This document shows positions 28,882-30,215 of a stretch of DNA of 64,000 bases, piece after piece. This stretch comes from Pseudoclavibacter sp. 13-3 (GTDB lineage: Bacteria > Actinomycetota > Actinomycetes > Actinomycetales > Microbacteriaceae): contig NZ_JAJOZT010000003.1 in NCBI RefSeq assembly GCF_021168475.1, forward strand, positions 1 to 64,000, read 5' to 3'. The notes below the pieces were generated by a model, which saw only the letters and a program-made list of their open reading frames with translations, searched no databases and was not told where the DNA came from. Both the position numbers and the translations under genes were made by a program. The first letter of the stretch is position 1. The number at the start of each line of letters is the position of its first letter.

Positions 28882-28908
28882 GACATGGTGCCTTTCGCAG
28901 GTGCCTCT

Positions 28909-28998
28909 GGAGACGTCGCATAGTCTGGCCTAGTGCACCACCCTGCTAAGGTGGAGTCCCGAATTTCGGGACCGAGGGTTCAAATCCCTCCGTCTCCG
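28909..28998 (+). tRNA. tRNA-Ser (anticodon GCT)
   Basis: Acceptor GGAGACG (28909-28915) pairs with CGTCTCC (28991-28997). The anticodon arm CCACC/GGTGG has loop CTGCTAA. The long variable arm GTCCCGAATTTCGGGAC is typical of tRNA-Ser. Discriminator G; CCA is not encoded. Confidence 0.96.
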
Positions 28999-29007
28999 CA
29001 CGAAACG

Positions 29008-29049
29008 AAGGCCCTGCATCCCATGTGTTTTCCGGGATGCGGGGCCTTT
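29008..29049 (+). terminator. Terminator after tRNA-Ser(GCT)
   Basis: A long stem, AAGGCCCTGCATCCC with GGGATGCGGGGCCTT (one bulge), follows the tRNA by 10 nt and ends in a short T run. Confidence 0.85.
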
Positions 29050-29120
29050 GTCGTTTGCACGGCCATGCTCACGGTTCGCAGGGTCGCCTGCGTTCTGCCC
29101 ACCCTGTCCACGAGCCCTGC

Positions 29121-29207
29121 TAGCCTGTCACCGAAGCCCGTCTCCGGCCCGCAGACGAGGGCGCTCTACCCACAGACGACAGGGCTGACTCGCAGGAGGG
29201 CTGCGGC
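29121..29207 (+). promoter_or_regulatory. Switch-like structured leader of the SMR gene pair
   Basis: TAGCCT at 29121-29126 is a possible -10, giving a leader of about 75 nt. GCCCGTCT (29136-29143) pairs with AGAC-GA-GGGC (29153-29162). The word GCTCT (29163-29167) can pair either with AGGGC at 29181-29185 or with AGGGC at 29197-29201, which overlaps the AGGAGG ribosome-binding site (29194-29199). ACGAGG, GCGC and TACCC occur in the same order as in the guanidine-III riboswitch as I remember it, but the P1 stem of that class is not evident. The downstream genes encode Gdx-like exporters, so guanidine control is plausible. Confidence 0.4.
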
Positions 29208-29522
29208 GTGGCATGGATCATTCTCATCGCATCAGGTCTGCTCGAGGCCGTCTGGGCAGCCGCACTCGCAGCCTCGCGCGGTTTCCGCAGGCTCTGGCCC
29301 AGCATCCTCTTCGTCGTCGCGTTCGGCGCGAGCATGGCCGGTCTCGCGTATGCGATGTCGGTGATTCCGACTGGCACGGCCTACGCCGTCTGGGTGGGCA
29401 TCGGCGCATGTCTGACGGTGATCTGGTCGATGGCGAGCGGGCGGGAACGGGCCTCGGCCGCGCGTGTGCTGCTGCTCGTGCTGCTCGTCGCATCCGTCAT
29501 CGGTCTGAAGGTGGTGAGCTGA
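29208..29522 (+). CDS. SMR-family transporter subunit, Gdx/SugE-like (first of pair)
   Basis: 104 residues, four TM helices. SGLLEAVWAAAL carries the essential Glu in TM1, and PTGTAYAVWVGIGA is the TM3 signature. The sequence is closest in pattern to guanidinium exporters (Gdx/SugE) rather than EmrE. GTG 29208 has AGGAGG 9 nt upstream. A second SMR gene follows with a 1-base overlap, so the two probably form a heterodimer. The substrate would be guanidinium or small quaternary cations. Confidence 0.88.
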   Translation: MAWIILIASGLLEAVWAAALAASRGFRRLWPSILFVVAFGASMAGLAYAMSVIPTGTAYAVWVGIGACLTVIWSMASGRERASAARVLLLVLLVASVIGLKVVS

Positions 29523-29881
29523 TGCCGTGGATCGTCCTCGTCGTGAGCGGTGTGCTCGAAGCGGTCTGGGCGACCGCGCTGGGGCGCTCGGAGGGGCTCA
29601 CCCGCCCGGTCGAGGTCGTCGTCTTCGCGGTCGCGCTGCTGATCAGCATGGTCGGCCTGAGCCGTGCGGCCCGCACGATCCCGATCGGCACCGCCTACTC
29701 GGTGTGGGTGGGCATCGGTGCGGTGCTGACGGTGGTCTTCGCACTGGCCACGGGCGCTGAGCCGTTCTCGTGGCCAAAGGTGTTCTGCATCGGTGGCGTC
29801 GTGATCGCGGTGATCGGGCTGAAGCTGGTGCCGTCGGATGCCGCGGTGGCGGAAGACGCGGAATCGTCGCCTAGAGCGTGA
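29522..29881 (+). CDS. SMR-family transporter subunit, Gdx/SugE-like (second of pair)
   Basis: 119 residues, four TM helices, with SGVLEAVWATALGRSEG and PIGTAYSVWVGIGA. The essential TM1 Glu is kept. The C-terminus has an extra acidic tail of about 13 residues that the partner lacks. ATG overlaps the stop of the first gene (TGATG). Its 3' end overlaps the convergent small membrane-protein gene by 11 bp. Confidence 0.88.
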   Translation: MPWIVLVVSGVLEAVWATALGRSEGLTRPVEVVVFAVALLISMVGLSRAARTIPIGTAYSVWVGIGAVLTVVFALATGAEPFSWPKVFCIGGVVIAVIGLKLVPSDAAVAEDAESSPRA

Positions 29882-30215
29882 ACATCAGCGCGTAGAGCGC
29901 GGCGAAGACCGCTGCGGGCAGATAGAGCAGGATCACCAGCGCACACGAGACGAACATCTTGGTCGCGCGCGAGCTCCATGAGGCGACCCCGATGACGATG
30001 TGCAGCACGATGCCGAGCACGAGCACGACGGGAAAGCCGTAGACGAGCACCACCAAGAAGATCAGCGGGGCGTATGGGCCGGGAGAAGTGACGGCCACCA
30101 GGGCGTACCAGATCGACGCGACCGCCAGCGGTAAGAGCGGCAGTGCGATGCTCAGGCGCCGTGCCCACTGCTCTCGGCGGTTGCGCCGGTGTTTCGCGGG
30201 GCTCTCAGCAGTCAT
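29871..30215 (-). CDS. Small membrane protein of unknown function
   Basis: 114 residues. A basic cytoplasmic N-terminus (KHRRNRREQWARR) and three hydrophobic segments (about 22-42, 48-75, 86-112). No family recognised. ATG 30215 has TAGAAT 9 nt upstream on the minus strand, close to a leaderless arrangement. It overlaps the SMR gene tail-to-tail. Confidence 0.65.
   Translation of the reverse strand: MTAESPAKHRRNRREQWARRLSIALPLLPLAVASIWYALVAVTSPGPYAPLIFLVVLVYGFPVVLVLGIVLHIVIGVASWSSRATKMFVSCALVILLYLPAAVFAALYALMFTL

Follow-up and report, generated by a model that had tools for sequence, protein, structure and literature searches.

The question raised by this locus is whether the short leader preceding a pair of SMR exporter genes, at positions 29121–29207 of the window (the whole stretch of 64,000 nucleotides that was analysed), is a working guanidine switch of a divergent or new kind, as suggested in an earlier note on this DNA. 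The window belongs to a 2.35 Mb genome of the Microbacteriaceae, and the gene order is tRNA-Ser(GCU), a terminator-like hairpin, the leader, and the two SMR genes starting at 29208 and 29522 (Table 1). The possibility that the leader is part of the tRNA-Ser transcript was rejected, as the terminator-like hairpin precedes the element at 29121. By comparison with a sister species, the leader is best explained as a decayed guanidine-III (ykkC-III) riboswitch which would have lost guanidine control while the exporter was kept, and the probability of this reading is put at about 0.86.

In the sister species, which belongs to the same genus and shows 95% protein identity, the guanidine-III model RF01763 scores 46.7 bits at the same place before the exporter gene (locus L002), where the curated Rfam threshold is 36 bits. 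An Infernal search of the window leader against Rfam, which the earlier note had called for, showed RF01763 only with a 90-nt query, at 29131–29188 with 8.5 bits and thus below the cut-off. No guanidine class was found with Rfam at gathering level in the whole window, nor in 501 nt searched at E values up to 10. The models of guanidine-I, -II and -IV gave no match up to E 10 in 29121–29210 or in 28900–29400, and no guanidine-III match was obtained elsewhere in the window genome. A covariance model of our own, built from 29 relatives with the window and the sister excluded, gives 20.0 bits for the window (29129–29193, E 9e-7 in 301 nt, filters off) and 64.5 bits for the sister orthologue, scores that reflect mostly sequence, as the RNAalifold structure of the model has only 6 pairs. 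The leaders of the two species align colinearly across the aptamer with one single-base gap, located within the eroded upstream hairpin. This alignment together with the 20 bits indicates that the window leader is a guanidine-III homologue and not a new class, and its common descent with the known members is clear from the sequences compared. RF01763 precedes most homologues of the window exporter, and is present in 194 of the 398 genomes in the family sample. Of the 40 homologous loci scanned first, the window not counted, 32 have it.

Table 1. Features of the leader region and the exporter genes, with positions in the window; aptamer parts are named by homology to guanidine-III.
Feature	Position	Strand	Remarks
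tRNA-Ser(GCU)	28909–28998		Upstream of the terminator-like hairpin and the gdx leader
Terminator-like hairpin	29030–29044		Between tRNA-Ser(GCU) and the gdx leader
-10-like element TAGCCT (TANNNT), putative exporter promoter	29121–29126	+	32 nt upstream of the core; TAACCT at -33 in the sister
Putative guanidine-III riboswitch remnant, whole aptamer region	29129–29193	+	Own covariance model
Former P1 5' strand, CGCAG	29150–29154	+	TGCGG in the sister
Core ACGAGG	29155–29160	+	C6-G7 ligand-binding dinucleotide (29156–29157) retained; numbering from the T. fusca structure (PMC5696562)
Former P2 5' strand, GCGCTCT	29161–29167	+	GAGCAGT in the sister; 29166 is G17 → C
Former P1 3' strand, CCACA	29170–29174	+	CCGCA in the sister; G23 → A at 29172, an invariant column
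Former core linker GACAAGAC, now GACAGGGC	29178–29185	+	A33 → G (29182), A35 → G (29184)
Former P2 3' strand, CTGACTC	29185–29191	+	Same as in the sister
Shine-Dalgarno, AGGAGG	29194–29199	+	Identical in the sister
SMR/Gdx-type exporter subunit 1	29208–29522	+	104 aa, GTG start; PF00893 80.5 bits
SMR/Gdx-type exporter subunit 2	29522–29881	+	119 aa; PF00893 70 bits; start overlaps the previous stop by one base

In the T. fusca structure P1 is made up of pairs 1–4/21–24 and P2 of pairs 12–18/35–41, and C6, G7 and G17 hold guanidine, the last of these by hydrogen bonding (PMC5696562). Mapped onto the window, C6 and G7 are both present and the position of G17 is occupied by C. Every one of the 95 other guanidine-III leaders that were parsed has G in this column, two more C entries (L022 and L106) being spurious pattern hits. 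The P1 helix, described as missing in the earlier note, is indeed reduced to 2 of 5 pairs, against 5/5 in the sister and 3–5 in other true members. Three of the seven P2 pairs are lost compared to the sister because the 5' strand has changed at three positions with the 3' strand unchanged, one further U-A pair is now U-G, and all that remains of P2 is a 5-bp alternative in a shifted register. The substitutions in P1 and P2 are uncompensated. The A33 and A35 columns, both G in the window, are invariant in the 29 relatives, and of the 23 columns invariant in these relatives the window differs at five including G17. Among 171 leaders (some redundant) 127 have no such difference. Recognisable variants differ at four of these columns or fewer, and in unrelated leaders and shuffles the number is at least six.

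The leader and genes of the window are thus orthologous to those of the sister riboswitch (L002:1423-1487, G002), but the latter is fully canonical with 0/23 invariant columns changed. Compared to the guanidine-III class (RF01763; T. fusca PDB 5NWQ, PMC5696562), the window shows the same position before a Gdx pair, the same placement of promoter and Shine-Dalgarno, and the same order of ACGAGG, TACCC, GACA(A/G) and the P2 3' strand. It differs in having no P1 or P2 pairing of the class type, a C for G17, G for A33 and A35, and an eroded upstream hairpin. The order ACGAGG (29155), GCGC (29161) and TACCC (29167), on which the earlier note based its comparison to guanidine-III, is present as described. 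The window leader is not filed as a guanidine-III riboswitch, since the four defining features tested were not found in it.

The divergence of the window core is close to the neutral rate. It differs from that of the sister at 9 of 46 positions (20%), and the fourfold-degenerate sites of the two exporter genes differ at 24% and 28%. Seven of the nine core differences are located at structured or core positions, and all seven are placed on the window side by outgroups, in a comparison of two species, the window and one intact sister. Other congeneric pairs, which share species and are not independent, have mostly 0–3 core differences at a fourfold divergence of 0.17–0.39, and six sister pairs of one genus (0.17–0.36) have none; in two pairs that include an indel the count is 4 and 5, and at 0.40–0.60 it goes up to 7. 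In the congeneric pairs with 4–7 core differences the ligand-contact bases and the stems are kept. The runs ACGAGGG, TACCC and CTGACTC are unchanged in the window core, and neutral drift at such divergence would be expected to leave runs as well. The pattern is one of lost constraint on the aptamer with the exporter retained. The relation to guanidine-III proposed in the earlier note is upheld by the canonical switch at the same place in the sister, but a "divergent or new guanidine-responsive element" does not agree with uncompensated changes in P1 and P2, the loss of G17 and a nearly neutral divergence.

The downstream genes encode a Gdx-type SMR exporter pair, as had been proposed from the sequence. 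In addition to the PF00893 matches, the best PDB match of subunit 1 is 6wk5 (E 2.3e-20), which we take to be Gdx-Clo, and all EmrE entries are weaker. The best NCBIfam model is SugE, with a score below the SugE cut-off. The exporter belongs to the SMR family, is nearer to Gdx than to EmrE/Qac, and is encoded by an adjacent gene pair, in agreement with the Gdx subtype; adjacent Gdx pairs forming heterodimers are known (PMC9574504). Subunit 1 is still under purifying selection, with dN 0.023 and dS 0.31 (dN/dS about 0.07) compared to the sister, and subunit 2 is under weaker constraint (dN 0.082, dS 0.31).

Convergent with the gdx pair is a 114-aa ORF on the minus strand (29871–30215), which has no Pfam or NCBIfam match; its translation was taken from 29871, so that the stop codon is included. 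The sister has a counterpart with 86% identity, and the ORF is missing from two congeners lacking the gdx pair. In these two further species of the genus other sequence follows tRNA-Ser, and the gdx locus is therefore not fixed in the genus. The sister species contains an insert of about 2.2 kb at the 3' end of tRNA-Ser(GCU) (L188, G002:C2:147900-150700, 250–2490), which is absent in the window. The insert is flanked by an intact tRNA on one side and, on the other, by a repeated AAATCCCTCCGTCTCCGC that immediately precedes the gdx leader, and is predicted to encode an integrase-like ORF of 467 aa.

A σ70 consensus scan gave no promoter, and the -10-like element was found by comparison with the relatives, where TANNNT peaks 32–36 nt upstream of GGACGA (53 of 93 leaders, with 15.6 expected from shuffles). 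The presence of TAGCCT at the corresponding position indicates that transcription probably still runs through the leader from its beginning. A transcript start downstream of 29163, which the earlier note held to be incompatible with its proposal, is thus not expected, as the conserved offset places the start probably upstream of this position. The predicted cost of opening the Shine-Dalgarno is similar in the two species, 4.2–6.9 kcal/mol in the window and 5.0–5.9 kcal/mol in the sister. The exporter pair is most likely transcribed from the promoter at 29121 and translated without guanidine control.

The alternative closest to the proposal of the earlier note is a divergent guanidine-III switch that still works, in which P2 is shifted to GCUCU (29163–29167)/AGGGC (29181–29185), P1 is dispensable or replaced, and the response is to guanidine or a related ligand. 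Four substitutions since the ancestor shared with the sister, which has GCAGU/AAGAC, raise this pairing from 2 to 5 pairs, and the helix occurs in predicted minimum-energy structures of the leader, but comparable sets are found in 34% of simulated random-decay leaders and in 48% of shuffles, and the shifted register is found in none of the relatives. C6-G7, A8, G9 and the TACCC strand are kept, whereas C stands in place of the guanidine contact G17, two of the five P1 pairs are left, and in the shifted register the old P1 3' strand and the core have no linker between them. The purifying selection on the first subunit would agree with such a switch, which we nevertheless regard as unlikely. The altered linkers of some relatives (GACGAC, GCAAAGAC) indicate that the family tolerates some change, a point against the reading as decay. 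A rewired minimal switch with the same register-shifted P2 and no P1, sensing guanidine weakly or a different small molecule, is very unlikely. That the observed substitutions are sequencing or assembly errors, and the true leader an intact riboswitch, is highly improbable. The window species is represented here by a single assembly, but errors would have to affect seven structured positions within about 35 nt and consist of substitutions only, the divergence of the neighbouring coding sequence from the sister follows the usual codon-position pattern (dN/dS 0.07), and the assembly is rated 100% complete in 9 contigs.

The earlier note also saw a built-in choice between open and blocked translation, with GCTCT (29163–29167) pairing either to AGGGC at 29181–29185 or to an identical AGGGC at 29197–29201. 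Direct reading agrees with these letters, and the second copy does overlap the Shine-Dalgarno, but the choice is at chance level. With the Shine-Dalgarno left intact, 48% of dinucleotide shuffles have a 5-mer able to pair with two partners, one upstream and one overlapping the Shine-Dalgarno, and 19% have one for which the second copy is identical. Seven sets of this kind are present in the window leader, mostly owing to the double occurrence of AGGGC/GGGC, and the fold stability of 29121–29207 is no better than that of the shuffles (z +0.90). Alignment of the leaders across relatives, another check proposed at the outset, shows no conservation of the alternative pairing: in the sister these places read GCAGU, AAGAC and AGGGU. 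In our reading, the dual pairing follows from a G+C-rich sequence and a Shine-Dalgarno rich in purines. A switch class that is new and has no relation to guanidine-III, with GCTCT alternating between the two AGGGC copies, is hardly credible, as the leader can be aligned over its full length with the guanidine-III riboswitch of the sister.

Other variants of the class were observed among the relatives. A GACGAC linker replaces GACAAGAC, with two core adenines missing, in gdx-homologue leaders of two types, seven of Leucobacter type (L033, L034, L048, L157, L166, L169 and L174) and three of Agromyces type (L081, L085 and L176), and is thus found in at least two genera. P1, P2, C6, G7 and G17 are intact in these variants, which score 28–48 bits with our own model, and Rfam at gathering level does not detect L033 and L034; the variants could have an altered ligand preference. 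Like the window, the short-linker variants (e.g. L033, L034, L081) are weak or missed in Rfam and precede gdx homologues, but they keep both helices and all three ligand-contact bases, whereas the window keeps the linker length and has lost the pairing and G17. In the guanidine-III leaders L009, L031, L058 and L084 GCAAAGAC replaces GACAAGAC, and in L058 and L084 P1 is changed on both strands to CCCTG/CAGG(A/G). Locus L173 (G099:C2:597540-597890) has a guanidine-III copy with A33 → G before a gdx homologue with an in-frame TGA, and is possibly a second decaying locus.

According to the literature, guanidine closes an H-type pseudoknot in guanidine-III, by which the Shine-Dalgarno is freed, and the closure promotes translation and protects the mRNA (PMC12186494). 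If the window leader is a decayed riboswitch, the common ancestor of the window species and its sister should have had a canonical switch directly upstream of the paired Gdx exporter operon. In the window lineage P1, P2 and one ligand-contact base would then have been lost by uncompensated point substitutions, and the promoter, the Shine-Dalgarno and the exporter genes would have been kept. With P1, P2 and G17 lost, the pseudoknot should no longer close, and expression would stay at a fixed level. From the sequence we infer that the RNA would no longer bind guanidine and that the exporter would be expressed at such a fixed level; the exporter genes are probably no longer responsive to guanidine.

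The kind of finding is ordinary: the leader is a degenerate copy of an established riboswitch class, with a small effect on the general picture of riboswitches. A search of the literature on decayed riboswitches gave nothing on guanidine-III. For ionic-liquid-tolerant Bacillus licheniformis and E. coli, mutations in guanidine riboswitches are reported to increase expression of the exporter (PMC12186494), and deletion of the riboswitch is reported to make gdx constitutive in an E. coli strain resistant to Cs (PMC13064478). The window would be an example of a riboswitch lost with its genes kept, intact in one species and an uncompensated remnant in its sister, and the two species are potentially a natural loss-of-control experiment which may bear on whether guanidine export needs induction.
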